Positions 1-61,859 are shown, counted from the first letter of the stretch. The stretch: DNA of 64,000 nucleotides from an uncultured bacterium (GCA_937862565.1 CALMFT010000033.1:1-64000); one strand, 5' to 3'. Numbers and translations are program-made. The notes: generated from the sequence alone by a model not told the origin.

Positions 1-233
1 TGAAATATGATGATGAGATAGTTTACAATGCTACAAGATTTTATATGCACATACTTATAACACGACACGTAAGTGAAATGATAGCTATGTGAGTTGATGT
101 AGAAAGTTATGCAGATAGCAAGTATGCAGACCAGATTGAAGAAAAATTAAGCGAATTAATATCGCTTTGTACAGGTAGAACCTTTTTAGAATTAACAGAA
201 ACATTTATATGAAAATCATTGACTGAAAACTAA
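1..233 (+). CDS. Unknown protein, 3' part of gene
   Basis: The reading frame is already open at base 3 and ends at TAA 231-233, so only the last 76 codons are present. It contains in-frame TGA codons read as glycine. The visible part is mostly helical-looking and polar, with alternating acidic and hydrophobic residues. I recognise no domain. The next gene starts 11 bases downstream, so the two are probably co-transcribed. Confidence 0.6.
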
Positions 234-244
234 TACACCACGCA

Positions 245-1756
245 ATGAACGTTGGTGATATAGTTGTTCTACAAAAACACATATCAGGTAAAAAAAGTCT
301 ATTCTATGGACAGACAGTTATATATCTAGGAAACACTAGTCAGTGAATATCTCTATTCAGACTTAAACGAAACGTAAATGTACGTGAGAATAGACATAGA
401 ACAGATTATGTACCAAGACTACATCATATTGTGAGCTTTCCACTTGGAATCAACTGATCATTTACAGATCCACAAGGAAGAGATATTGGACAAACAATGC
501 CTAGTATACACAAAATGGGTTGAGAATACTTTGCACAAGATTCATACGTAGATGTGACGCCTGAATGAGAAGATAAAGATTATCTTGAATTAGATATAGA
601 AATACCAACTACGGACTTTGCATTTATTAAAAACCAAGACTTTAATGACTTTATCGAAAGACAAAGAGTATTACAATTCATTGAAGCAGAACCTTGGATT
701 GAATTATATATGCCAGTAGCAAAAAAAGTAAGCCGTGTACCAGATATGGTATGGGGAAGAAAGGCAACTGTAGAACTAGAACAAGTATTTAATGAAAACA
801 CAACATCATACTTACCAAATTCCTGAATGGCATCATACTTTCAAAAAGATATCATCTATAAGCTCCACAACGGAGATATGGGTAATATGAATGTAGCAAC
901 AACAGGAGCAGCATATCCAATGACATATTGTAGATGACAAGCACCAAGAGGTAAATTTACGCATCAAGAACTCACTTTTGATATTCATAATGATCCAGCT
1001 TATGATGAGTGTCTAGTGTCAGTATGACAAGTAATTAACTTCGTATACTACCCTACACTACCAGGTTACCCATCATCTGAACAAAATATACCAAGAGAAT
1101 TCTATATTGGAACTAGCCCACAACCTGCTTCGGAAGATGTAGAATACATATCAGAATGAGAGTCTTGGACAATTGTACAAGCAAGAACACATCAATCATC
1201 AGCAGTATCGCCAGACTTTCCAAGATGGAGATCAATAAGATCAGATGATCCACAAACAGCAGAAAACTTTGTAAGCACATATACATTAAACTACGATAGT
1301 GGTCCATTACCAACATCTGGATTTAATAGTACATCAGAAATGTTAGCCCATATCACAGCATTAAAACAACCTTCAATGAAACCATTAAAGTATGATTTAG
1401 AACAATGAGATATTGTTTATATTAATCCTGAACATATTGGTAATAAAATGCACAGAAAATATAGAGAATACATTGTAATCTCCTTCTGGTGAAACGATTG
1501 AGCAGGTAATCAAGTATACAAAATACAACCAGCCAACAAAAAAACATTCAATTGAGAATGAGCGATAGAGATGAGAGCAAAGCACTTATTAAAAGCAGAG
1601 AAGATTACAAAACGTAAATTCACTCTTGCTGAAGACTTTGGAAAATACAAAGCAGGACAAACATTCACCAGAGATGAAATGATACAAATATTTGGTAAAT
1701 TCCAAGATGCTCGTGACCCGTTTATACTTAATAAATTATACATATGTGCTGAATAG
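245..1756 (+). CDS. Unknown 503-residue protein upstream of amidotransferase cassette
   Basis: The frame runs from ATG 245 to TAG 1754-1756 with about a dozen TGA codons read as glycine. An alternative in-frame ATG at 209 would overlap the previous gene by 25 bases; 245 is chosen because it clears that overlap, but the choice is weak since neither start has a Shine-Dalgarno sequence. I recognise no family. The N-terminus (M-N-V-G-D-I-V-V-L) and a segment near residue 385 (Q-G-D-I-V-Y-I-N) look like beta-barrel openings. The C-terminal 60 residues are basic and helical. The last 13 bases overlap the start of the glutamine amidotransferase gene, suggesting translational coupling and a possible role in the same pathway. 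Confidence 0.75.
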
Positions 1757-3048
1757 CTTTTAGAAAAATAGAGACATTGAAAAATATGCTAGAGACACAA
1801 TCAAGTAGAGGAATGGATTGAGTAGGACTTATTTATGAAGGACAAAAATGAATAACATTACATAAACTATTCGTAGAAAAGAATTATAAAAATTGGCTTG
1901 AATGGAAATCAGGTGACAAAGAAGCAATGTCATACTACTTTACAGACAACAGAACATACACATACGCTAAACTCGAAGAATTCTATCAAGACATTATAGA
2001 GCTTACAACGAGAGGGTTTGACCAACAAAAGTATGTATTTGCACACCACCGCAAATGAACTGTAGGATCAAACTCAATTGAAAATACTCATCCGTTTGAA
2101 ACAGATAAATTCATTCTTGCACAAAATGGTACAGATCGTAGATTGCACGAATGGGGAATTGTAGAAGGAATTGATCCTGACAGATCAGATACATTCGTAT
2201 TACTACAATACCTTGATATGCACTGTAATACTCTCGAAGAGTGTTTAGGACGCATTGCGATACTTCTTTCACGTAAAATCACAATTGGAACAATAATGAT
2301 TTATTCAAAAACTGAATGAAAAATGATGTTCTTTGCAGACGGAGAACGTTCACTCTATATTGAAAAAAATACAGATGGTACTATCAACTATATTCAATCA
2401 CGCAAAGATGATACAGTATGTGACTACAAAACAAAAGGTTATATAGTAACAGACTTTAGTGGTAATATATTTGTTGAAAAGTTAGAAAATCTTAACGAAG
2501 TTAAAGTTGTTCACAAAACATCAACAGCAGCAGTTATAAACTATTACACAGCACCAATGCTTTGAGCTTCGCAACAAACTTTCCCCCCAGCCCGATGAAA
2601 CTACAATATGTATTGAGACGATCCAGAAGATATGAATTGGGGCGGAATTGATTGAGGTTTTCAAGAAATAGACCCAGACGTCAATGACGTAAACGAAATA
2701 GAGGCGGACAATGGTTGGATTAACGATATGCCACTTTCGGATGTAATGGAACTTCTTGAAGATGCAGACGAAAAGTTATTTCATAAACTGAAAGCAAAAT
2801 GCTCAAACGGGTCTGCTACAGCAGAAGAACAAACAGAATACATTAACATAGTAATCTATGTAGGTATGTTAATCAAACGATGAGTACTTCTTACAGAGAA
2901 ATTCATCAAAGAAATTGAATCAACTAAAAAATGATTTCTGAATCTCTGAAAAGATGAAATTCATACAACAGAAAGAAACAAACGTATCGCTCAGCTCCGT
3001 ATGCAAATGATGGAACTAAGCTCTTATAAAGATATTTACAAACTATAA
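1744..3048 (+). CDS. Class II glutamine amidotransferase (Ntn-type) protein
   Basis: The product (434 residues) starts M-C-G-I, with G encoded by TGA: the hallmark N-terminus of class II (Ntn) glutamine amidotransferases, where Cys2 becomes the N-terminal nucleophile that releases ammonia from glutamine. Further family features follow: R-G-M-D-G at residues 22-26, H-H-R at 101-103, N-T-H-P at 114-117 and N-G at 128-129. The C-terminal half is acidic, then helical and lysine-rich, and is not recognised. The start at 1744 is fixed by the M-C-G-I motif and overlaps the preceding gene by 13 bases. The next gene begins 1 base after the stop and encodes an amidoligase, which could use the ammonia or amino donor. 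The glutaminase role is firm by motif; the substrate is unknown. Confidence 0.88.
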
Positions 3049-3049
3049 T

Positions 3050-4111
3050 ATGCTAATTTGAATAGAACACGAGGTTTGAGTCTTAGACCAACAAAAAAGC
3101 TTACAAAAAGCAATGTGAACAGTAAGACCATCTGACCACTATAATGAGTATAAAGAAGTAATGAAAGGACTACACGTAGCCTACGACAAAGAATACTACA
3201 ATACTCAATACGAGGTGAAATTCCGCTGATTTGAACCATCAGTAGTCAATATAGCAGGAGTATCAGATTACTTCTGAATGCTATACTGAAAACACGATAC
3301 AATACAAAACAAATGACCTGACTTCGTTGGTACACATATTCACTTATTCAATTGATATGGACCAACTAATAAAGGACACATACAAGTAGTAGCCAGAGTT
3401 TTTGCTGAAATGGCAACATTCTGGAAAAAATACTACGAAGATGACCGTATTGCCGATATATATAAAAACTACGAACTCAGACGATTATCAACATCAAACA
3501 ATCTACTAAAGTTTCTAGATCATAATGTATTTTTCGGTAAACTAAGAAGTATTCTAGACTACAACTGACAGTCATATCAATACAAAGACATTGGATATGA
3601 TAGACCTAAATACGCTCCAGTAATATGGTCTCACGCACGTTGAGGTAAAGAATACTCTCTTGAGCTTCGATATATATCAAACACATACTACCTACTAGAA
3701 GATCCAGTGGTAATTAAGCAATTAATTGATGACTGTGAAATGATAGTAAACAATGCTACTGCTAACCCAGTAGAAAACCTAGAAGAAACTAAAGCTACTT
3801 TAGAATCAATTTATAAAAACTACTTAACTATAACAACACTTTCATATGGAATCCAAAATAATATGAGTTTACGGGACGTTGAAGACAGGATTTGGAAATC
3901 ACTACCTATTACAGCCGTTGACCTCAATCAAGACAGACTACGTTTTGTTTCACAAATTAACTTGAGTATGATTCCCGATAACGACATTTGCTCCAGAAGC
4001 AATGCTATTGTCAGATGACGCAGAGATGAATCAGAAGATGATTGATACTCAGATGAGGATGGATGGGAAGATGACGAGTCAGACAGCTGATCAGAAGAAG
4101 AAAGCAATTAA
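3050..4111 (+). CDS. Amidoligase-family (glutamine synthetase-like fold) ligase 1
   Basis: 353 residues. The N-terminus carries G-I-E-H-E (residues 4-8, G from TGA), then E-V-K-F-R-G, then G-T-H-I-H at 94-98, and E-L-R at 205-207 followed by a Y-I-S-N-T-Y stretch. This order matches the amidoligase family, COOH-NH2 ligases related to glutamine synthetase that form amide or peptide bonds using ATP; the Glu and His residues are expected metal/ATP ligands. The last 50 residues are highly acidic (D/E/S-rich) with no evident fold. That tail, and the region before it, are encoded by DNA that also encodes the cyclotransferase in another frame. Flanking amidotransferase and cyclotransferase genes support a gamma-glutamyl or similar amide chemistry. 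The substrate cannot be read from sequence. Confidence 0.8.
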
Positions 4112-4340
4112 AATTGAGCTATACAAGGTTACAGATGAGAATATGCTAGCACGCCTAGACTCTCTCGAATGACACCCACGTTGGTACCGTAGAACACCGA
4201 TTAGAACACTTAGTGGAGAATCTATAGAGATATACAATATGCCACTAGACCAAAACACTTCTCCATCATCAGAAGTATATATGGCACAAATGTTTGAGAA
4301 AGAAGATGATGATTTTATTTACTATAACTGGACTAGATAA
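3846..4340 (+). CDS. Gamma-glutamylcyclotransferase (GGCT/AIG2)-like protein
   Basis: 164 residues in a frame different from the amidoligase. The start is set by the canonical GGCT opening: V-Y-G-T-L-K at residues 8-13 with G at 15 and N at 18. Later come G-F-P, I-E-L-Y-K-V, L-D-S-L-E-G and W-Y-R-R-T-P, the conserved GGCT/AIG2 core. The family cyclises gamma-glutamyl amines or peptides to 5-oxoproline, releasing the amine. A polar insert rich in Met, Gln and Lys lies between G-F-P and I-E-L-Y; it is encoded opposite the acidic tail of the amidoligase. The first 266 bases overlap the amidoligase gene. The stop overlaps the next start (TAATG). A gene start at 4143 would miss the Y-G-T-L-K core, so 3846 is preferred. 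Confidence 0.85.
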
Positions 4341-5281
4341 TGACAACAGCACCACTCGATATATGTTTCGCTCTTCAGGATATGACTCCAGACGAAATAT
4401 TTGCAGACAAAAAGTTTGCACAAGAACTAGAACTCGCTAACGTAGCCTACTTCGATAACCAGATGCCATCACAATGTAGAAATCATAGTTGTTCAACAAG
4501 AATTACTGAAATTGATTGACTATACAAAGCAACTAAAGAAAAGCGACTCGCTTACTATAACTTAGTAAAAGAGCACTACAAAGACAAACTTCCACTCGGA
4601 TGAGATAGATACCTTTCAGGTTGAAATCACTTCCATATCTTCTTTAATACACAAAAAGAAGTATCTTCTCTCATTGAGAAATGAGCTCCAATAACACCTG
4701 ATATGTATACATTCATTCGGGCAATACCACTCTTTGCTAAATTCAAAAAGTTTGAAGATGGTACAAAGAAATTTTTCTCACGAAGATGTTGGTGACATAG
4801 AGTAAATACTGTAATTGCTCAAAGCAAAAGTTACGGTATTGCTGGTAAAACCTCTTACTCATCATCTGAAAATCGTTCATCATATTCATACAACAGTCCA
4901 GATGCAGAAACAGGTACAACAGTTCAGTCTCTTGAATTCCGTATGAACGGAACAATAGATAACCGTATCTATGGTCTGTACCAAGCATCAATGCTGTATG
5001 CACTTGATAAAACTTTCTGAGAAGTAACTCCATTACGAAGCTCCACTTCAATATACGATGGAATTACTGCCCAGTTTTCTGGAGAAGACTATGATAGTCC
5101 AGGATGTATCAGTTTAAATAAACTACACGATATGTGACACGGATTTAAATTGTCTAAGCCAGATGTAAAAAAGCTTACTACTAATATAAATATTATGTTA
5201 TCTTTACTCAATAAATATGGTTTAACAAACTCTGCAAATAGTTTGCAATCCTATATAGATGAGTATAATATACTCGCTTAA
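4340..5281 (+). CDS. Amidoligase-like protein 2
   Basis: 313 residues, starting in the TAATG overlap with the cyclotransferase gene. It repeats the spacing of amidoligase 1: H-F-H at residues 97-99 (H96/H98 in the first) and E-F-R at 199-201 (E205/R207 in the first), with E-L-E-L at 29-32 as a possible equivalent of the N-terminal G-x-E-x-E motif, although the glycine is replaced. A serine/tyrosine-rich loop precedes the E-F-R motif. I infer a diverged second ligase acting with the first; a catalytically weakened partner subunit is also possible. No recognisable terminator follows; a promoter for the next unit lies at 5337-5363. Confidence 0.65.
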
Positions 5282-8267: not shown

Positions 8268-8937
8268 CAAACCATCTGTAAGTAAAATCGTTGCGGAAAT
8301 GTTTCCAACAGACCCAACGTTCTTTCAAATGGCACTCAGTGCAGAAGTTATACAAAAAAAGAAAATAGATTGAGTAATTAAACCTGGCTCCATTGCGGAC
8401 CAGGTTACTCATCTTGTTGCAAGTGATGTTATGTTTATGCTTAACACATTTGGAACAATCATACACAGTGTAGCATTCGACCGAGGACTACTTTGAATTA
8501 GCTATCCAGTTAAAAATAATGTACTAGCTAGACATATTCGCTGAATCGAAGAGTTTTTTATAAAGACTTGAGCACGACTCATTATGTGAGAAACGTGTGT
8601 AGAAACAGATGAATACACAGGTACTCTCGATTGAGTGCTAGAATGGAACGGCAAGTACTATATTATAGACTGGAAAACCTGGACAGCATATAAACATATC
8701 TACGGATTTGAAAATGCTATTTTGAAAAAGAATTGAGAACCTTATTCAAGAACACCAGATATAAAAAAAGTAGGGTTTCAACTCTCTTTATATAGAGAGC
8801 CCTTAGAAAAAAGAATTAAAATAGACGGAATGCTTGTGCTCTGGGTAACAGAACATTGAGTATTCTATTGGGAATGTGAATACAATTTAGGTTTATTAGA
8901 TGAATGGAGAAAACGACACAATTGACTTTCACTTTAA
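8248..8937 (+). CDS. PD-(D/E)XK nuclease (RecB/Cas4-like exonuclease)
   Basis: 229 residues, overlapping the previous gene by 20 bases. The core reads G-T-L-D-G-V-L-E-W (about residues 130-138), then Y-Y-I-I-D-W-K-T-W and V-G-F-Q-L-S-L-Y: the D...D-x-K with a following Q-x-x-x-Y that marks RecB-family phage exonucleases. A conserved E in the first helix and H in A-R-H-I-R-G may complete the site. It likely processes DNA ends in phage recombination with the SSB. About ten TGA codons are read as glycine, including the one in the L-D-G motif. Confidence 0.8.
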
Positions 8938-8950
8938 CCGCCTATTACAA

Positions 8951-9568
8951 ATGACAACCATAGCTGCATTACGCAACACAAAAACAAAAGAAGTAGTCCT
9001 CTGTCACGATGGAAGACTTACTACAACAACACATCAGCTCTGTTCTGATAAAGCTAACAAGCTTATAAAATTTACCTATTTCGCTCTACTCTGGTGTGGC
9101 TCAGAACATATGAAAACACTTCTAGAGCACAAACATCGAAAGCTGTTTGATAACATAACCATTGAAAACGAAGAAGATGTACTCTGATTTTACCAAATAT
9201 ACTTTGACAATGTTCTTAACGATCCAGTTGCAAAAGCAGGGGACGTTGGAACAGAAAGACGCCATTCCGCAGACTTTATTATCATAACTCCAACAGATGT
9301 TTATGGAATTAATACTCTCTGAGAATTTACTGATGCAGATTTATCTCACACTAAGTACTCTGATGATCTAGTTTTGTATACAAACTGATCTTGAGGAGAT
9401 GTCACACGTGACTACATTGAATGATATCTTCATAATACTGAAATTGAGTCATTCACTCCAGAAATTATGGCAGACATACTAAAAGCCTGAGCTGAATACG
9501 CAGGAAGAAGAATAGTAAGCTGTAACTCAAACATAACGCTCTATAAAGCTAGAGATCTATTCTTATAA
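8951..9568 (+). CDS. HslV/proteasome-beta-like Ntn peptidase
   Basis: 205 residues. After Met the protein starts T-T-I-A-A-L-R, the N-terminus expected of HslV and 20S beta subunits, where Thr1 is the nucleophile. C-H-D-G-R lies at the place of the conserved Asp17 region and S-D-K puts a Lys at mature position 33. Later A-D-F-I-I-I-T and N-G-S-G-G (both flanking G from TGA) match the HslV A-x-L-I-I-T and G-S-G-G strands, followed by a helix ending A-E-Y-A-G. The start at 8951 is preferred over an in-frame ATG at 8900 because it exposes Thr1. No HslU/ClpX-type unfoldase gene is seen nearby. It might process virion or host proteins. Confidence 0.72.
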
Positions 9569-13093: not shown

Positions 13094-13579
13094 ATGTCTG
13101 ATACACGTATCGCATTCCTAGATACTCTGCTCGCTGAATGTTCAGTCTACGCACAACAACTTAAACAAGCTCATTGGAACTTCACTGGTCCGAACTTCAT
13201 TGAGATGCACTGATTCTTCGGAGATAAATACAATGAAGCAATCGGTTGGGTTGATTTGCTTGCTGAACAAGAACGAAAACTAGGTCAGTTTCCAACAGGA
13301 GTACTATCTAGGTATCTACTTGTATCAGGTATAAAAGAAGAAGAAACAACTGTTCCAGAACAGCTAACCGCAATGATCTTAAGGTCATCACAAATACTCT
13401 GCTCACACCTAGATAAAGCTATTAAAGGCACAAATGACGATTTAGTTACACAGAATCTGTTTATCGAAATCAAAGCTTCAATAGATAAAACAATCTGGTT
13501 TCTTAAATCAATTTGTCCGTGTAATTCTATTGACTTACAGGATAAATCTATAGAATGAAAAGCGTCCAGTGAGAGATAA
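13094..13579 (+). CDS. dps: Dps/ferritin-like DNA-protection protein
   Basis: 161 residues, the usual Dps length. The ferroxidase-site pattern is complete and correctly spaced: A-H-W-N-F-T-G-P with His27, M-H-G-F-F-G-D with His39, then D-L-L-A-E with Asp54 and Glu58 (His to His 12, His to Asp 15, Asp to Glu 4, as in bacterial Dps). TGA codons give the glycine after His39 and one near the C-terminus. Dps 12-mers oxidise Fe(II) with peroxide and can coat DNA. It has its own promoter and a strong terminator, so it is a stand-alone unit; it may protect phage or host DNA during infection. Confidence 0.85.
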
Positions 13580-13651: not shown

Positions 13652-14365
13652 ATGTCAGACACTAATTATGAAGTAGAGCTAAAAGTTTTACTTTGAACAG
13701 CATTTCCACCAGAAATATTTATCAAAGCACTCGCTAAAGATTTTAAATCTGTTAGAGAAGCTACAGAAGAAACTCATCGTAACCATTACTTTGAAGTACC
13801 ACATAGAGTTAAAATAATGCCTGCATTCGAAGAACGTCTTCCAATAGACCACGAAGATAAACTCAGGATACAGGAATTCCGTAATTGAAACGATATTGTA
13901 GTACGAAGTAGAGAAATCAAAACAGTAGCCTGAACACAGGTATTACTTGTTATGAAATCAACTGTAGACTGAGGAAGATCCCAAAACGGAACAATCCGTA
14001 AAGAGCTAGAAATACCTATCCCAATGTCTATAGAAGATCTCGATGCAATATTAACAGCTCAAGCTGAGATTAGACCACAAGCTAAATGGTCACGCATCAG
14101 AAAAACATTCGATGTAGTAGATAAAGACGGATTCTACTTCACAGTATGCCTTGATAAAAATGCAGGATACTGATACATTGTAGAATTTGAAGTAGTAGTA
14201 ACCAATCCATCTGTGATTGAATCTACTAAATTTAAGCTACAAAACTGCATCAAGACTATGTGACTCACAGAACTTCCAGCAGATCAATTACACCGTATGT
14301 TTGAGTTCTATACTAAAAACTGGGAATCATTCTATCAAACAGAAAATTACTTTTTCATTAAATAA
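13652..14365 (+). CDS. CYTH/triphosphate tunnel metalloenzyme
   Basis: 237 residues. The N-terminus carries Y-E-V-E-L-K (residues 6-11), the E-x-E-x-K signature of CYTH proteins. Later strands supply the expected basic/acidic tunnel residues: V-V-R-S-R-E, L-V-M-K-S-T, R-K-E-L-E-I, W-S-R-I-R-K-T-F, V-C-L-D-K and V-E-F-E-V. CYTH enzymes bind polyphosphates (thiamine triphosphate, tripolyphosphate, RNA 5' triphosphate, or ATP in class IV cyclases). The actual substrate cannot be told. The gene stands between the dps terminator and the giant-protein promoter, with a variant of the phage motif at 13635-13651. Confidence 0.75.
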
Positions 14366-14546: not shown

Positions 14547-17500
14547 ATGTCTTTCTTTGGTCAGGACCCACTTCAATCTTTTCTTAAAAAAGAACCTACT
14601 AATCCTATTGTACCAGAACAAGTAACTAAAGAACAAAAACAGCAAGCTCAATGAGAGTGAGCATCTTTCCTAGACGAATATGTATACGATCCTGGAGCAA
14701 AAGCCTTAGGTGCAATTGGTACTGGACTAAAATACGTATGACAAGGATGGGACCTATTCTCAGGTACATTCACTTGAGATATGGACGGATCAGAAGCTGA
14801 AAAAAAATGGGCTGCTGATGAAAAAAAAGCTAAAGAAGCTCAAGCTAAAATGGAACAAACACAACGTTCCGTTCAATCTACATTTCTCTCTGGATTAAAG
14901 AGTGATTTTCAAACACGCAGTCCAAACAAAAGAGTTGTACTTGCTAACCAAGTTGATGAAGCTACTAAACAATATTCATCTCTATATGATACAATTGATA
15001 CAATGGATTGAATTGATCCAACAAAAACTAATAAAGCTCTAACTGAGAGTGGTGATCCTATTGCAAAATATATGGGAGCTGGTTATACATTTGGTTCAAA
15101 AGATGAATACAAAAGATACCTGGAATCCGATATTATACCTGCTCAACAAGAGCTACTACGTAGACAAGCTAAGTATCTTAACGAAGGAAAAGGTTCTGCT
15201 TATGCTTACGACAAAGCTATGGAAGAACAAGGTTCAGATGAACTCGCTCAAAAAATATCAGACTTCTCTAATAACTTACAAGCAGACTCTAATAGTGCAG
15301 CTATTGCTAAATTCAAAAATGATTGAAGTTACTTTAAAGCAGGACTAGCAGCAATCGGAAAAGTATTCGATGTAGCTCGTTACGCTGCAACTAAAACAGG
15401 ACTTGGATGACCAGATATCGCTAACGAATTCAAATACACAGTAGGTGGAGCAGAACAAGACGCAGGTGAATGGCAAAAAGCTTGATACGGAGCTGTTCGT
15501 AATCTATATGAACTATGGGACGGAGCACCATCAATCGTTTCACAAATCCCTGCCTTTATAAGTGGTACAGCGGTAGAATCAGGTGTGTCTAAAATACCTT
15601 GAGTATTAGAATGAATGGCTGCACTATCTAAATCAGAAAAAGTTATAGACTTCACTGATGATATGTTATGAGTTGCTAAAGCATTCGGAGATAAACATTC
15701 AGTAATGAAAGCGTTCTCTAAAGAAATGCTTACAGACACAATGGTATATGACCCAGCATCACAAGTATTTATGTGAAAAGGTATGACAGATCAAGATATT
15801 CAAGACAATATGATTATGAACCTACCAATTAATCTTGGTATTGGATTAATGGCTCGTAGCACCAAAACAGCACAAATGCTCGCTCAAGAATATGATATTC
15901 AAAAGACATTTGCTAAGGATGGTACAATAAATCTCACACAAATGGAACTTGATCTCATCAAAAATGGAGAGTACGACTTAGCACAACTTAGCATTCTAAA
16001 CCGTAACAAAGTATGAGCTAACGTTCCTGAAAATCTTATTAACCTAAGAAATATTACAGGAGATAAGACTCTTGCTAAAAATGCAAACAGAGTAGCTGAA
16101 AACGTACAAGCAATGCTTGAAAGAGTAGCTAAGAAAACAGAATCAACTGCTGACACACATATGCTCGGTACAGCTCTTGCTGATAACCTAATATCTGCTA
16201 ATAGTGAAAAAACTATGGCAAATTTTATGGCATTTAAATCTCAACAAGCAGCTAACGCTTCAATAGAAAAATCAATGATGAATGGAATGGAAGGAGAAAA
16301 TAGTAACAAGTTCTGGAGTGCTAAAGTAACAGAAGCTGGTAAAAATTGAACACTAGATATAGATACTGCTCTCACTAATTATATTAAAGCTAATCCTGAA
16401 TATAGTGCAGCTGCTCAACTCTACCGTAAAATATCAGGTGTTGCCCCAAGTAAAGACTTCAAATTCAATGCTAATACAATGAATGAAAAGACAGTAAAAC
16501 GTCAGCTTGGTAAAATGCTAAGAGATATTTACCGTGATGATGTAGCTTGAGCTGGTAAACTTGTAGAAGGAGAACGTCTATCTCCAGTTCACGTATTCTC
16601 ACAATGACAAGTACTTAATATTGCTACAGGAGAAAAGCAAGACGTAAGCAAATTCTTCGGTACAGTTAATCGTTCAACATATCAAAAGAAAGCACTTAAT
16701 GCTACAGTACTCGATGATGTTGCGGCTAACGCTCAAGTATTCGAATACTTTACTAAACAGCTTCCAGGTTGAACTCAAACAGAAAAACTACTTAACATCT
16801 TCAATAAGAAATCATTCGATAACTTATCATCTGAAGAAGTAACTCTTATTAGAGCTGCTCTATCTAATGAAATGCTCACTGACCTAGCTTCTCGTGGTAA
16901 AAAAACTACGCTACAGGCTCTATTCGGTCATCCTGCCTACAGAATGTTTACTAAAAATGAAGACGGTACATACTCAATTGCACTCAAAAACCTAGACTGA
17001 AAAGAACTATCTGAGACACTTGGTAAAATGTTTAAGACAATGGATGAAATGTCTATAGTTAAATACTTAGCAGATATTAAAGCTCAAGATGAAATTATAA
17101 CAGGACTTAAAACAAAATGAGTTAAATCAACTATTACAGAAGTAACAATGAATCAGCCAGACTACTTAAAAAATATCTGGAGCGGATTCTCAGAAATGCT
17201 ACTACGTAAAACTACACCTAGACTTAATACAAATCTTGCATTACCAAAAGTTCCTAAAGTAGAATGAATGAGAATGATGATGCAACTTCAAAAAGCATTT
17301 CCAAACATACCTATTGTTTACGGTAAGCTTCCAGAATGAATGAAAGGTATAGTATCACCATATCAAGGCAAACTCATCATAGATGACTCAAAAATGACTG
17401 AATTTACATCACTACACGAGTTCGGTCACGTATGGATTATGCACGCAAAAGCAGATGAAAAAGAGCTCTATGACTCAATGTCAAAAGCAGTTAAAGATAC

Positions 17501-20500
17501 TCCTTACTTTGCTAGAGTTAAAACTGAATACGGAGCATTCTATAAAACAGATGAAGAATTCATTGATGAAGCAATCGCACACGCTATTGAAGATTCAGGA
17601 GCTAGATTCTTAAACAAATTAGAACGTCAAAACTTTATAGATAAATTTATGGCTCTAGTTCAATCAATATTTGCTAAACTACGTAAAACAGACCTAACTG
17701 GAATGACTGATGATGTAGTTAACAAACTATTCAATACAAAAGGTAAACCAATATCAGAAAAAACACTAGCAGAATTAGATATACTTCAATTTACTAAAGA
17801 AGATTTCGATAAAAATAGTTACTTTATTAGACACATTATGCAAAAGATTAGTGAAGATGAGTTATTCAACCGCTTCGCTAAATCAGCTAAAACAGCAGGA
17901 GAACAAGAATTTATTTACCAAATTATCAACTCTATGATTAAAAATACTGTCCCATCTAGCCAACTTAAGTCAACTGTAGAAAATTACATCCACGGATTCA
18001 ATGATTACATTGGACTCGTAAATAAAGATCAATTCACTGAACAATATATTAAATCTGAAATAGCTAAGCTCGAAACAAGTTCTATTCTACGCTCAATGGT
18101 AACAGATTCTACAAAGAATCAGTCAACACTTGGTAGACTTCTTAAAGAAGGTGTAGCTACAACTGATACATTCATCAATCAACTCGATACAGCTATAGTA
18201 CAGATGGGGAAAAACCTTGGACTAAAAAGAGTATTCTTCAATGGCTCACTTGGTAAAAACTTCGTATCAGAACTTCAGAATACTATTGATTCTATTAAAA
18301 ATAGTGATATGAGCATTGTTCAAAAACAAAAAGCTCTCATAGATCAATCTATTGCTTACTCAAATGACTTTGTAACAAGTCTTTATGAAAAAGTAGTTAA
18401 ATGAGATGACATTGGATTCTCATACACAATCAATGGTAAAAAAGTATCAATCCAGCCAGAAATGCTCTACCAAATGCTACAAGTTATGCGTCTTCCAGAC
18501 TTTGCTGGATCACAACTTGGAATCAAAGCATTCCTTGGAAACAAAAATGTACGAGCTAATCTAAAAAAGTATTACGATGTTACAGCAGCTAAAATCGGAG
18601 AACTTAATGTAAACAATCAAGAAAGAAGAAGAATTGTTTCACAAGTTCCAGTAGATGAAATCCCTGCAAACAAAAATACTATTATTTTAGTGTCAGAGTC
18701 TAAAAATCCTGATATCACATACGCTGAATTCTCAGATGAAAACGGTAAGTATATGACAATCAATAAGTTCCTTGAATCTGAAGTAGATGCTAATACTAAC
18801 TACCTCGTTTCATCAAACTTCTTTGCTCGTAGTACAAACAATCCAGAAATGACTGCATTCCTTGATAAAGTTCAAGATACTAAAAATGTCTACCCAGTAG
18901 CATTCTCAGTAGTACAATCAAACGGTAAAAATATGGTAGAAGTAAATGGTTATGATCAACTTAAAAAGCATTTTGCTATTAAGTATACTTCATTCGAAAT
19001 GCCAGAGTTTAAATTTGATTACGCACCATCTGTTAAGTCTCTATCTCGTCTCTCAGAAAACTCAATCAATACAGAATCTCGTAAAGAATTAGGAGATATT
19101 CTCGATGGTACATACATAGAAAATCCTAAAGCCAAAGAAGTTCTAGAGGGTATGGGAGCTAATCCAGTTAACGCACCTACAGTAGATGAGTCACAACTAA
19201 TCCACTCATTCGGTGAAATTGGTAAAATTGGAGAAATGTACAGACAAGTACTCTCTGAAATTGTTCGTAAGGCAAGTGCTATCAAAACTAAAAAAGGAGA
19301 ACTCACTGAAGGATCATACATTACATCAGATAAACTCATCATTACAGATGATATTAAAAATGAATATCTTGATGCTATTACTGGTTCAGAAGATCTTGAC
19401 GCTATCTATATCAACGGTAAAACGCTTACAGAAAACATTGATGATGAACTAAGTGCAGTAGATAGCAACGATTACCTACGCAATCTTACAGAAGACCTAG
19501 ACGCTCTTAAAGAAACAGATATTGATAGTACAGACTTTGAAACTCATTCTGAATTCAATACTTGGAAGGAAAATGGAATCCGTGTTCTTGAATCTTCTAT
19601 CTCTGATGTTAAAAAAGCTATCGAAGCTTCACGTAAAGAAACACTTGGTAATGCTATTAAGGAAACTAAATACGCTACAGGTAAAGAAGCATTCGATGCA
19701 ATTACTACAATGCTAGTAGATGCTGGGTACAACTACACAAAGATCTCTGCAATCATTAAAACAGTTGCTACAGAAAATCCAGGATGGAAAAATGATATTC
19801 TTAACTCACGTGCATCAGAATTCCTTCCTTCATTCGATGGATTCGTTGCAGCTAGAATGGCTAGTCCACTTCTTGAAAAATACGCTGTTACTCCAGAAGC
19901 ATTTAAAACTGCAATGGAAGCAACATACGAAAGAGTTCATTCTGCTACATTCCGTAAGCATTACCCAGAAAACGATACAATCCTACAGCTGTTCCTTAAA
20001 TCTCTTCAAAAGTTTGAAGTTCTCGATGCTACTGATGATGTATTTGCTATTGCTACAAACCTTGCACCTGATACTAAAAAATCACTACACGGTCTAATAA
20101 ATAATATCTACTCAGGTGACTTCCAAAAGATCGCACTTGATGATAATACTGAATCATATGCCACATCTACATTCAACCAACTCTACCGTCAATTCGCTCA
20201 AGGTATGAAGAAAGATATGTCATCAAATGATAAACAGTCGCTTAGAGAAATGGGTGGTATAGACGAAGGAGAAGATGGAATGTTTACTACAGATACTTCT
20301 GTAACTACATTCGAAGGTAACGCATACAACCAAGTGATGAAAGATTTTGTTTCACAACTATCAGATTACCATCAATTCGAACTTAATGGAATACTCCCTG
20401 AATCATTCTCATTCCGAGACACTAAAGGTAACCCACTATACGAATCAACAATGAATCTAAATGTGTGGGCAACTCAACCAGAACATAAGGTTGCAAACGC

Positions 20501-21890
20501 TACTCCAGCAAACATTGCTGCTCCAGTAACAGGAGCTACAAAAGAAAAACTATCAAACCGTTCAACAATGAACAAAGCTTACGGAATCTTCAATAGTAAA
20601 TCAGTTGATACAATCAACAAATACATTGAACTCAATAAGTTTGATACGTTTGAAAAACTTCCTTTCAAAACAAAAGAGGGTCTACAAGATGCAATGCAAA
20701 AAGCTAACATCCGTATCCAAACAGAAGTAAACGATATTACAGAAGAAGTTCTATCTAAATCACTTAACAAAGCTGAAAAAGATATTAGTAAAGATAAGAT
20801 AGAAGAAATTAATGAATTCATTAAACAATTCCCTGGAGATGAATCTAATATTGGAATTGCACTTAGAGAACGTATGAAAGATGACTACGCTTACCTTGCA
20901 GAGTATTACGCATCTGATGCAGTAAAACATCTTGATAAAAAATCAGAAGTTATCGGACGTATTATGGGAAGAAATAAAAAACTAGAAAGAGAAGGAGCAA
21001 ATGCTGTTAAAGCAGAAATCAACTCAAATCTTCTTGGTAAAATTCTTAATAATGTAGTTCAAACTCTCGAAGCATTCCGCCTTAGAAAGATTACAGACTG
21101 AGCGAAAGATATTGAGCTTACTCCAATCTTTACAATGGTAACTGAATCAGGAGCTAAACGCAACTACTACCTTAATACAATTAACAACTCACCGATCTTC
21201 CGTACTCTTATGGCTGATGCAGGAGATGTTAAGTTTCCTAATCCTCTAATGCAAATTCTTGAATATGGTAAATATATTGAGAAAAAGATCTTAGAAATTG
21301 CTCCAAAAGATAAGGCTATAGTAGGTACACTTCCTTACCAAGGACTCGCTAGAAAGATTCGCAAGATTCAAAAACTCTATGGAGAAACCATTGGTAAAGA
21401 TACAATCGACTCATACCAATATACAAATGCTCAGGGAGAAGTTATTAGTAGGTATACAGGAGATGACGACAACATCAATGCAGCAAAGGATTACCTTGGT
21501 AACATCCTCGCTACAGATATGAAGATGACAGTAGCTATTGAAGATATTACAGGGTTCAGTCCAATCAAAATTGAAGGAGAAGGATTCGATTTCAAACTTG
21601 AAAAAGAATCACTCACTCCAATTGATCAAATTGATTACGCTCGTATCAATCCAGCATACCTTGATTCATATGACTTCTCATTCGTATATACAGATTTAAC
21701 AGAATGAAGTCCTACATTTGGTAAGACATTAGAATCAACATTTGGATGGGAATGAGACTCTGTTAAGCTTACAAATACTAGACAAGTCGTAGAAGACGTT
21801 GAAATTCCTAAAAAACTTAGTAAGATAGATGAAGAATTCAGTACACTCGCAGACACAGCAACCTGTGAGATATCTTCTAACCTTTTCTAA
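14547..21890 (+). CDS. Giant 2447-residue protein with zincin metallopeptidase domain
   Basis: The frame stays open for 7.3 kb with dozens of TGA codons read as glycine. The N-terminal 170 residues are Ala/Lys/Gln-rich and helical. Near residue 920 a segment reading I-P-I-V-Y-G-K-L-P-E-G leads to T-S-L-H-E-F-G-H (His957, Glu958, His961), and D-E-A-I-A-H follows with Glu1008 as a likely third zinc ligand, a gluzincin layout. The rest is alpha-helical and low in cysteine. Size, composition and the embedded zincin resemble the large 'polyvalent' proteins of phages, thought to be delivered into the host with the DNA. I see no RNA polymerase motifs. It ends 1 base before the second giant gene. Confidence 0.8.
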
Positions 21891-40658: not shown

Positions 40659-41999
40659 TTAGATAGCAGGAGTTACGAACTGTGTAACTAGACGAACTGG
40701 ACAACGATTACCAAGTGACATACCACCAACGATCATACCTAGTTCAAATTCCATATCGTAAGACTTAGTTTCACGGATATTAGTAATTCTTTCGTAGAGA
40801 CGAATAGATTGGTCAGCACGAGTAATTCCTCCCTTAGGATTGAATTCTTGGTTTTCACGAACCCAAAGTTTAATCATTGAACGAGGAACGATATACGCAG
40901 TACCAGTCGTGTAAAGCTTATTAAGCATTGGGTCACGAACGATATCTACTTCACCGAACACTGTTGAAAGCTTAGGAACATTGAGTTTGAGTTTATCAAC
41001 GAATGCTGTGTAACGAATCTTATCCATATTGATCTTAGAAAGTTCAGAAAGGAATGAGTCATTACATAGAAGCATTACTGGCTCGTCAGAAGTAACAGAA
41101 CCTGATTGGTGAGCGATGTTGATTTCGTTAAGAAGTTCACCATACGCTACAGATGCACCAGTGATAACTTTACGAGTACCACATTCAGTAACAACCTGTT
41201 CAAGACCAAGCATTTCCATTTTTTGGAGAGCACCACCACCTGGAGATTCATTAGAACCCTTATAGATAGCTTTATTTACTTCTTGGAATAGGATACCAAG
41301 GTTGTACATAAATTTCTTTTGAGCTTCCATCTTAGCATCACCTTCGTAAACATAAACCTTATTAAGTTCAGCTTTCGTAAATGAAATTTGACGAGAGAAA
41401 TGTTGAACGTAAGACTTAAATTCTTTGTAGTTGAATGTAGAAGATGAACGAGTAATGTCATCATTATCATTACGTCTCCAGTAACCACGTTCTACAGTTT
41501 GAGCCGCAAGTACAGCAACTGTACCAGGAATAGTTGTAGATGTATTTACCTTAGTAAGTGTTACAACCATAGTTGTAGCATTTGTAATTGATGAAACCAC
41601 ACCGTTAAGTTCATCTGAAGTACCAGATGCAGCCTTAATAACGAAGATTGTATCATTTTGTGCAAATCCAGAAGTGTCACCAACTACAAGAGTAATTTGG
41701 TTAGAAGTTACAGTAAGAGCAGCATTTGTAGAAGTAACAGTTGTGTTAAAGTCAAACATTGAGTAATCAAGCCATTTTACAGCGTAACCATCAACAGTAA
41801 CAGTAGCATCAATACCTGGAATTTCACGAGGTTTAAGAGAGAGCCCACCTTCACCAGCGAGTTGTTTAACATCGAAGAAAGCGTATTGGATGTGCTTAAA
41901 TTGTTTGAAGAGGATTGGGAAGAGACGAAGGTTTTTACCAACGACATCTTGTACAACCTGTCCTAGGGTATAAGTAGACCCTGTTCATACAGCAGACAT
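40659..41999 (-). CDS. Major capsid protein
   Basis: 446 residues. It is the most obviously highly expressed virion gene: only 1 of about 34 glycines (codon 5) is UGA. The N-terminal arm is Lys/Gly-rich, followed by a Thr/Val-rich beta insert (residues 80-165, T-T-V-T-S-T-N-A-A-L) that may be an Ig-like or P-domain decoration, then an HK97-like alpha/beta body (F-S-R-Q-I-S-F-T-K-A-E, D-I-V-R-D-P-M-L-N, L-W-V-R-E-N-Q-E-F-N). It lies between scaffold and adaptor genes and has its own terminator. Name based on order, codon bias and composition. Confidence 0.82.
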
Positions 42000-42902: not shown

Positions 42903-43133
42903 CTACTGTCAAATCTTTTTGCGTAAATCGAAGAGAAATTCAGCAACTCATCGCATTTTTGCTTCAAACTCAGGGTCAAAATGTTGTCATTCATAGATAA
43001 CCACATTATTTCGTTCAAGAGTTTTAATCTGAATCCAATGTTGCGTAAGATCAATAAATTCAGCAATCATTCGGCTATCCATCTTAGAAATATGTAAATT
43101 CCAAGTATCGATTTCAGTTGGTAAACTAATCAT
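42903..43133 (-). CDS. Small 76-residue protein
   Basis: ATG at 43131-43133, TAG at 42903-42905. Mixed alpha composition (W-N-L-H-I-S-K-M-D-S-R-M-I-A-E-F, F-E-A-K-M-R) with a basic C-terminus. No family recognised. It overlaps the DUF5664 gene end by 8 bases and precedes a terminator. Confidence 0.6.
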
Positions 43134-43431
43134 TGGTTATAAAAGAGTTACGTTTAGAATGGTAAGCATAAAACATTGCATTACACTGAATAAGACCGAT
43201 ATGAGGAACTCCTGATTCAGGATCAACCTCTTCTCAATCCATTAGTGCAATCATATGTCTCATCATTGATTCAAGAAGCTTTTCACGAGGAAAACCTTTT
43301 GTCCAATTTCTAGGAGCATATTTCTTGGCTCCATATTCAAGACCACGAACCATAGGCTCTAGTGAACCAAAGTCAACTAGAGACCATTGTGGTTTTCATT
43401 CATTATACCTGAGAGCTTGCGTTGCTGTCAT
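43126..43431 (-). CDS. DUF5664 / MazG-related nucleotide pyrophosphohydrolase-like protein
   Basis: 101 residues. N-E-G-K-P-Q-W-S-L-V-D-F (G from TGA), then Y-G-A-K-K-Y-A-P-R-N-W-T-K-G-F, then M-R-H-M-I-A-L-M-D-G-E-E-V-D-P-E-S-G, matches the DUF5664 (dATP/dGTP diphosphohydrolase-like) family of phages, which hydrolyse nucleotide triphosphates to monophosphates. The conserved acidic E-E-V-D cluster would bind Mg. It might bias nucleotide pools. Placed among virion genes, which is unusual. Confidence 0.78.
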
Positions 43432-59261: not shown

Positions 59262-60671
59262 ATGATTTACCTCATTCCAATCGCAATCGTAATTGCAGCA
59301 CTCGTTGCACTCACTCTATTCGTTGCAGCTGCATTCCGTGTAGTAGTATCTACTAACGAAGTACACATCATTCAGAAAAAGAAAACATCCATCTCATATG
59401 GTAAAGGACAAGAAGCTGGTAACGTTTACTACGCATTCCCCTCTTGGATACCAATAATCGGTATATCACGTATCGTACTACCAGTATCAAACTTTGATAT
59501 TTCACTTGATGCTTACGAAGCATTCGATCAAAACAAAGTTCCATTCCGTGTAGACGTAGTAGGGTTCTTCCGTATCGCAAATCCTATTGAAGCTGCTGAA
59601 AAGATTGAAAGCTTCGAACATCTTCATAATCAGCTCAAACTCATTATCAATGGTGCTATCCGAACAGTTCTCTCTTCAAAGACAATCATAGAGATTATGG
59701 AGGAACGTTCAACAATCAGCCAACTCTTCAATCAAGAAGTAGAACCACAACTCAAAAACTGGTGAGTTGAAAACGTACGTTCAGCAGAAATTATGGACAT
59801 TCAAGACTCACAAAACTCTAAGGTTATTCAAATGATTAAAGAAAAGAAGTCATCAGCAATTGAACGTGACTCACGTGTAGAAATTGCAGACAACCTCAAA
59901 ACCGCACAGATCGCTGAAATTGAAGCAGTTAAAGAAGCTGATATGAAAAAGCAGAATGCAGAACGTGAAGTTGGAGAAAAACAAGCTGAGAAACAAAAAC
60001 TTGTAGGTATTGCACAACAAGTATCTCTACAAGAAGTAGCAACTGAAACTAAGATCACTCGTGAAAAAGAGATGGAAGTTAAGAAAGTTGAACAAGTAAA
60101 CCAAGCTAACATTAATAAGGAACAAGCACTTATTGACGCAGATAGAGAAAAACAAATGAGAACTATTGCTGCTGAAGCTCTCAAGCTTGAACAAGAACAA
60201 AAAGCAGAAGCTGATCTTATTACCCAAAGTAAAAATGCAGAAGGTAAACTCGTTGAAATGACTAAGAATGCAGCAGGTATCAAAGCTGAAGGTGCATCTA
60301 AAGCAGAAGCTGAGAAGTTAATGCAAGTTGCTATGGTATCAGGTGCTATTGAGCTTGCTTCAAAGATTGCTCAAAACCCTGAATATATGGCATACCTTCA
60401 AAATATTGAGGCTATCAAGGCTTCACAAAATGTTGGTACAGCTAATGCAGAAGCTCTCAAGTGAGCAGATCTCAAGATCCTTGCCAACGGAGGAAGTGTA
60501 GACAAAGGGATGACCTCTCTTCTAGATGTATTCTCAGGAAAGGGATGAGCGTCAATGGCTGCAATGCTTGAGAATCTCAATAACTCAGACCTTGGTAAAG
60601 ATCTCATCGGTAAGTTTCTAACTCCTAAAAAAATGGATACTAGAACAGAAGCAGAACTTAAAGCAGAGTAA
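59262..60671 (+). CDS. SPFH/flotillin-like membrane protein
   Basis: 469 residues. N-terminal membrane anchor (residues 2-25, I-V-I-A-A-L-V-A-L-T-L-F-V-A-A-A-F), then an SPFH domain (V-V-V-S-T-N-E-V-H-I-I, D-I-S-L-D-A-Y-E-A-F-D, G-A-I-R-T-V-L-S-S-K-T-I), then a long Glu/Ala/Lys coiled coil (residues 190-380) and a Gly-rich tail. This is the flotillin layout: oligomeric scaffolds of membrane microdomains. Only about four glycines use UGA. A phage-encoded flotillin could reorganise the host envelope. Confidence 0.85.
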
Positions 60672-60707: not shown

Positions 60708-61859
60708 ATGACTAATACAAATCCAGAACCATCATACACTACAGAAACAGTTAAAATTACAGTAGACTTCAAACGTTTACTAATCATTCTTGCAATCGTA
60801 GTTACACTTTGAACTTTATTTAGAATTGTGTACACATACGCTTTTCCAGAAAAAAGCCCACTTCAAGTATGTCAGGAATCATATATGGAATCAGTCAATA
60901 CAATAGCTAGAGAAAATGAAAAAACAGCACAAAAATGTGCAGAAGACTTCGGTAGCGACATATACAAACTAAACAAATGTACATCATCACCACTACCAAC
61001 ACCAAACAACAACTGTTGAGTAACATTGAACGGTACAGGAGCCAAATCTCCTGTACCCCCCAGTGGTCCAACATTAAGAAAAGAATTCTGACTTGAAGAT
61101 TGTCGCTTTGTTAACAAAGACCATCGGATGAATAAGTATCACCTTAACTGGACTGCTTACGATATAGCCTGTGTAAAATGAGTTGCATTCGATATTAAAT
61201 CTCCTTGAGATTATAAAATAGAAAAAATATGATTCTGATATAATATGGGCAACTATATTATTCTTAAATCAGATTGAGACTTTAGAATTGTATTAGCTCA
61301 TACTCAAACAAGTAGAAAAGTTGGAGAACAACTAAAAAAATGAGATATAATTGGTCAAACTGATTTATCTTGAACCTCTACTTGAATGCACGTCCATATC
61401 GAGCTATGGTATAAATATTTTATACTGTCTAGTGAAGCCATCTACGGATGAGAACACACTAGAGAAAATCAATGGGCACTACTACAACACAGAAAATGGG
61501 ACTTCGGACAACCAAAAGAACAACCTTATTACTTCACTGCTTACAACCTATGAGACGTAAATCAAAATGATTCCACCCCTTGTATTGGAGCATCGGGGGT
61601 AGACTTATGTGCACTAGAAGCCTCGGGAGTGCGTACTATGGCTCTTACCGCTGACATCAGGAAAAAATACAAGGTAAGCTTAGGAGAGAAAGTCAGACTT
61701 ACTGGAGAACCTGGTTGCGAAGGCGAGTATGAAGTTCACGATGAAATGAATATAAGATTTAGACAAGACCCAGGAATACTCAGACCTTGAACGCCTTATT
61801 TTATCAAAGGAGACTTGCCATCCAAACCAGGATGAACTTGTTTCGTAACCAAACTTTAA
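60708..61859 (+). CDS. Membrane-anchored M23 (LytM) peptidase with extra C-terminal domain
   Basis: 383 residues. A single membrane span near residues 25-45, then cysteine-containing linker, then an M23 domain: G-N-Y-I-I-L-K-S-D-G-D, L-A-H-T-Q-T, G-E-Q-L-K-K-G-D-I-I-G-Q-T and G-T-S-T-G-M-H-V-H-I-E-L with zinc His228 and His230. Nearly all motif glycines are TGA-encoded. Residues 290-383 form another domain with Y-E-V-H-D-E-M-N-I-R and conserved Gly, perhaps a 3D or wall-binding domain. It cuts cell-wall cross-links and could act in lysis or entry. Confidence 0.85.

Follow-up and report, generated by a model that had tools for sequence, protein, structure and literature searches.

A candidate 'peptidoglycan modification' cassette of divergent, pared-down form in a phage genome reading TGA as glycine

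Gene layout and genetic code of the locus

The window, that is the whole 64,000-base stretch analysed here, corresponds to the first 64,000 bases of a contig of 66,494 bases from a Patescibacteria bin and contains the following features:

209..1756, + strand: 515-aa protein, overlapping the start of the amidotransferase gene by 13 nt
1744..3048, + strand: class II (Ntn) glutamine amidotransferase/glutaminase, 434 aa (table-25 translation, residues, profile)
3050..4111, + strand: probable amidoligase-superfamily (GCS/COOH-NH2 ligase-like) protein, 353 aa, with an acidic tail (signature, full-length score)
3846..4111, + strand: stretch of 266 nt read in two frames, for the C-terminus of the 3050-4111 protein and the N-terminus of the cyclotransferase (codon usage)
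3846..4340, + strand: gamma-glutamyl cyclotransferase of the GGACT/AIG2 family, 164 aa (PF06094, PHROG 2520)
4340..5281, + strand: probable second amidoligase-superfamily protein, 313 aa, nearest Amidoligase_2 (signature, full-length score)

The four contiguous or overlapping genes delimited by the first-pass annotation are real at these coordinates when TGA is translated as glycine, and the compactness and recoding that it described are both borne out, the former by the 266-nt out-of-frame overlap. At the other junctions, the amidotransferase gene overlaps the upstream ORF (1744/1756), its end lies one base from the first ligase gene (3048/3050), and a TAATG occurs at position 4340. The upstream 515-aa protein has no confident match in Pfam, PHROGs or NCBIfam and is without relatives; its gene shares the strand, and possibly an operon, with the cassette. 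An SSB gene and a putative primase-helicase gene are both located downstream of the cassette.

Recoding of TGA alone raises the proportion of the window covered by ORFs of at least 200 aa from 16% to 73%, and all four ORFs are open at their coordinates only with TGA as an amino acid (table 25), the in-frame TGA codons numbering 12, 13, 4 and 7 in the order of the genes. Several of these codons occupy conserved glycines, in the MCG and RGxDG motifs of the amidotransferase and the LEGxP motif of the cyclotransferase, which rules out tryptophan as their meaning; on this sequence evidence TGA is glycine (genetic code table 25). Reading the frames with table 11, with TAG recoded or with TAA recoded was tried and rejected in each case. 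The rpoB gene of the same bin has three in-frame TGA codons. A putative major capsid gene (40659-41999) contains one TGA in 446 codons, whereas TGA is frequent in the early genes.

Profile scans identified a tailed phage in the window through its portal protein, TerL, tail collar, Amidase_3 lysin and M23 peptidase, the portal matching both P22-like (1.2e-15) and SU10-like (6.6e-14) profiles. A search with TerL retrieved two remote relatives only. Terminal repeats were searched for on the contig and none was found; the contig is perhaps incomplete. Other observations along the window include an HslV-family (Ntn-hydrolase) peptidase-like phage protein at 8900-9568 (PHROG 1040, 1.8e-4), a ferritin/Dps-like protein at 13094-13579 followed by a CYTH (triphosphatase) protein at 13655-14365, a 2447-aa protein without PHROGs match at 14547-21890, and a Band 7/SPFH membrane-scaffold protein (59262-60671) whose gene adjoins that of the M23 peptidase (60708-61859).

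Amidotransferase and cyclotransferase

The product of 1744-3048 carries the features expected of a class II amidotransferase: an N-terminal nucleophile (Cys2, in MCGIA of the table-25 translation), an R-G pair near position 22, HxR/T, HPF, an N-G oxyanion pair and a glutamine-binding Asp. The corresponding residues (R22, G23, H101, R103, T106, G108, HPF 116-118, N128-G129 and D149) align in register with the amidotransferases of phage cassettes, whose profile matches the protein with an E-value of 1.5e-14 and itself matches the glutaminase domains of GlmS, PurF and AsnB in the PDB; in PHROGs it matches an 'aminotransferase' entry (6e-5). Judged from these residues and scores, the protein is certainly a class II glutamine amidotransferase, as first proposed. 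It has the Cys2 nucleophile and glutamine-binding residues in common with GlmS, PurF and AsnB, but its chain contains no recognised synthetase domain and its partner enzymes are encoded by separate genes; its C-terminal half of about 210 aa lies outside the assigned class II family region.

The GGCT-like call for 3846-4340 was likewise upheld, with matches to PF06094 (1.7e-11, 45.2 bits for a cut-off of 22.8), to PHROG 2520 (1.1e-14) and to the cassette profile (9e-18). Both marks of the GGACT/AIG2 family, the YGTLxxG..NH loop and a catalytic Glu in LxxLEG, are present, as VYGTLxxGxxNH and as E108 in LDSLEGHPxWYxR, so that its sequence places this protein in the gamma-glutamyl cyclotransferase family with certainty. 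The protein matches the family in full, catalytic Glu included. The protein differs from other members by an insertion of about 35 aa ahead of the ELYKV strand and by sharing the DNA of its N-terminal half with another gene. Over the 88 codons of this shared stretch (3846-4111), the codon-usage score is +14.6 for the ligase frame, +6.5 for the cyclotransferase frame and -50.7 for the third frame; by this measure both frames are coding-like, and the cyclotransferase frame is real because the N-terminus that it encodes is conserved. The acidic tail that the ligase frame encodes there has no known relatives.

Two candidate amidoligases

Neither 3050-4111 nor 4340-5281 matches an amidoligase profile in Pfam, PHROGs or NCBIfam at E<=1, so that the result formally named in the first-pass annotation as refuting its two amidoligase calls, the failure of profile searches to assign them, is what the curated libraries give. 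Such a failed search is a weak test, since an accepted phage amidoligase barely clears Pfam (22.8 bits for a cut-off of 22) and since catalytic residues are kept in both proteins. We defined an amidoligase signature as ExE (or DPE), HxH and ExR in this order and spacing. In a set of 547 ORFs, each 150 aa or longer and taken from the window and 27 phage loci, it was found in 26 of the 27 amidoligases and, beyond these, in the two window proteins alone, whose genes flank the cyclotransferase gene and are the only ones with the signature among window ORFs of that size. Its first version having been set after both proteins were known, the signature was retested on 49 later-fetched loci, a few phages of which were shared with the first set: it was present in 37 of 47 amidoligases, in none of 46 COOH ligases and in none of 605 other ORFs.

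Full-length scoring, with profiles built without the window and with 1500 shuffles and 425 natural ORFs as decoys, ranked the two proteins differently. For 3050-4111 no decoy scored as well against the COOH-ligase profile (0/1500 and 0/425, z 5.8), and against Amidoligase_2 only two shuffles and none of the natural ORFs did. All six of its signature residues (E6xE8, H96xH98 and E205xR207) fall on family-invariant columns of a MAFFT --auto alignment with 59 amidoligases. From full-length profile scoring, it is probably nearest to the phiEco32-type COOH.NH2 ligases (PF14395, COOH-NH2_lig, COOH.NH2 ligase-type 2), with which it shares a GxExE start and HIH, its YSLELRYISN aligning with YGVEYRTLSN. 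It has 13 of the 33 invariant residues of that family, and about 107 residues separate HxH from ExR, compared with 56.

The support for 4340-5281 is weaker over the full length, only its score against Amidoligase_2 standing out, with one of the 1500 shuffles and three of the 425 natural ORFs as good. It ranks first among 384 window ORFs in an hmmsearch, yet with an E-value of 0.75, and five of six catalytic residues fall on family-invariant MAFFT columns. Its signature residues (E29xE31, N48xS..E57, H97xH99 and SLEFR at 197-201) reproduce the order and approximate spacing of ExE, NxS..E, HxH and S-L-E-F-R..GT.D in PF12224. From full-length profile scoring, Amidoligase_2 is its probable nearest family, although there is no Pfam match and only 4 of 17 family-invariant residues agree in a full-length alignment.

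Other approaches were less informative. Single-sequence profile-profile comparison with ligase families placed neither protein above decoys, and the proposed check by structure prediction gave AF2 models too poor for use (pLDDT 32 for 3050-4111 from its single sequence, 56 for 4340-5281 with an alignment of phage amidoligases) and no significant Foldseek match. No close relative of either protein was found in viral contigs, genome contigs, phage records or Patescibacteria genomes; weak matches (L007 and L009-L011) sit in unrelated genes and were discarded as chance.

Gene context adds to the case. Among 75 phage loci with a relative of the amidotransferase, an amidoligase is found in 73, a COOH.NH2 ligase in 72, an ATP-grasp enzyme in 70 and a cyclotransferase in 32, a common order being amidotransferase, then COOH-ligase, with the amidoligase further on. 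The window matches this order, which fits the assignments of 3050-4111 and 4340-5281. The opposite reading, a stand-alone glutaminase and cyclotransferase beside two genes unrelated to amidoligases, would agree with the silent libraries, the decoy-level profile-profile scores, the negative AF2 and Foldseek outcomes and the three natural ORFs equalling 4340-5281. It would have to accommodate the absence of the signature from the 605 non-family ORFs of the new loci, the scores of 3050-4111, above all 1500 shuffles for COOH ligase, 1498 of 1500 for Amidoligase_2 and all 425 natural ORFs, the alignment of its six residues with amidoligase-invariant columns, and the amidoligase neighbours of the amidotransferase relatives; we regard it as improbable. 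Signature, full-length ranking and context together make the original amidoligase calls probable, even if no library profile assigns either protein, and we are fairly confident that both are amidoligase-superfamily enzymes, with the higher likelihood for 3050-4111. The presence of a cassette-type gene set in the window depends on this assignment.

Possible roles of the gene set

Gene sets of this type were described as a 'peptidoglycan modification cassette' in RIO1-, LUZ24- and phiEco32-like podophages (PMC5498523, PMC11945000), including PSA-HP1, phiEco32, LUZ24, PaP3 and CW02 (PMC5498523), with a variable number of genes. The peptidoglycan target and a block of superinfection are predicted roles (PMC5498523, PMC11945000, PMC10580990); the prediction goes back to Iyer et al. 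2009, and these papers also cite Hardies et al. 2013 (PMC5498523, PMC11945000). No biochemical proof for any phage cassette was found in the papers searched, which did not include Iyer et al. 2009. Our preferred reading, which we give about an even chance of being right, is that the window carries a divergent, pared-down cassette of this kind, in a phage that reads TGA as glycine and has an SU10-like portal, and that early in infection it remodels peptides of the host wall in a glutamine-dependent manner.

According to this scheme, the class II amidotransferase would hydrolyse glutamine at Cys2 to release ammonia, and two ATP- and Mg-dependent ligases of the GCS/GS fold would activate carboxylates (gamma-Glu or a peptide carboxylate), which could react with ammonia or an amine to form unusual amide or gamma-glutamyl links. 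The cyclotransferase might then trim or remove gamma-glutamyl groups as 5-oxoproline, in a deprotection or recycling step. The likeliest target would be the stem peptides of the host's peptidoglycan, or precursors of these peptides, early in infection, and the wall so altered could resist competing phages or premature damage. What the enzymes act on, which way the chemistry runs and what the phage gains are deduced here solely from published work and context. A wall with peptides would make a plausible target, given the Amidase_3 lysin and the M23 peptidase encoded by the phage and the Mur-ligase-family genes of the bin. Gamma-glutamyl chemistry fits with a Peptidase_C26 gene, of a family including gamma-glutamyl hydrolases, found at 8732-9412 between the amidotransferase and COOH.NH2 ligase genes of a relative cassette (L058). 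These genes are consistent with the wall reading and do not prove it. The locus L058 had seemed recoded from its coverage but uses the standard code.

Some form of protect/deprotect logic is also suggested by the association of a ligase with a gamma-glutamyl cyclotransferase, as known from butirosin biosynthesis (BtrJ/BtrG), and the cassette could instead make or recycle a soluble gamma-glutamyl compound or amide (for nitrogen scavenging or as a protected amine) rather than act on a macromolecule. Reduced-genome hosts may indeed be short of precursors, but beside the cassette we recognised neither a carrier protein or transporter nor any additional biosynthetic gene, and the gene set is kept across phages with widely differing hosts, which leaves this explanation unlikely. 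Modification of proteins, such as host RNA polymerase or ribosomal proteins, with glutamyl or amide groups during host takeover seems a little less likely still. It would suit the immediate transcription of the cassette genes upon infection in phage PSA-HP1 (PMC7082346) and the occurrence, in most other cassettes, of a RimK-like ATP-grasp enzyme annotated as ribosomal protein S6 glutaminyl transferase. That enzyme, the one most suggestive of protein tailing, is however the one not found here, and no known substrate tag corresponds to the acidic tail carried by the 3050-4111 protein. Modification of phage DNA bases, included among the possibilities first raised, is very improbable and finds no support here. 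The phage does encode a dATP/dGTP diphosphohydrolase N-terminal domain protein (43126-43431, PF18909, 1.5e-25), which would be in keeping with this reading, but no DNA-hypermodification enzyme was recognised among the scanned window proteins and the cassette members show no DNA-binding domain.

A bolder extension of the wall-remodelling reading, held only tentatively, is that phages of TGA=Gly Patescibacteria have evolved a minimal, ATP-grasp-free form of the wall-peptide cassette, its ligases invisible to libraries and one of them sharing overlapping frames with the cyclotransferase. If true, such a cassette would alter the cell wall of a bacterium that itself depends on a host, by a route not known from other phages.

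Comparison with known phage cassettes

A cassette amidoligase was found in 306 of 50,697 phage records; the phages that carry the cassette infect widely differing hosts, and its transcription is immediate in the one phage studied. The phage-borne nature of the set, pointed out in the first-pass annotation, is true but not new, since the same set is widespread and already published from many podophages. The present locus would extend it to a virus of code-25 Patescibacteria, a group with little-known phages and cell envelopes; its reduced set of an amidotransferase, two ligases and a cyclotransferase shows which parts may be core, and it warns that profile libraries overlook such ligases in recoded genomes.

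In LUZ24-like phages, Bjorn, BroderSalsa and CW02, a COOH.NH2 ligase, an amidoligase, an ATP-grasp ligase and a GGCT are encoded upstream of the primase-helicase, together with a class II amidotransferase that is annotated or detected by profile. The window set is alike in combining a class II amidotransferase, two probable GCS-fold ligases and a GGACT cyclotransferase on one strand of the replication arm, as in RIO1-, LUZ24- and phiEco32-like cassettes, and it also lies ahead of a putative primase-helicase gene, an arrangement that LUZ24-like phages share. It differs from these podophage cassettes by the lack of a detected RimK-like ATP-grasp ligase, searched for in the window and in the remaining 2.5 kb of the 66.5-kb contig, and of the companion protein of about 190 aa, on a contig that is perhaps incomplete. 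Both ligases are too divergent for library profiles, and the cyclotransferase gene is located between them, overlapping the first out of frame. The window holds a real cassette of a largely known kind, in a new reduced form and not categorically new; as far as its sequence can tell, what sets it apart is the TGA=Gly code, the absence of a detectable ATP-grasp enzyme, the extreme divergence and the 266-nt overlap.
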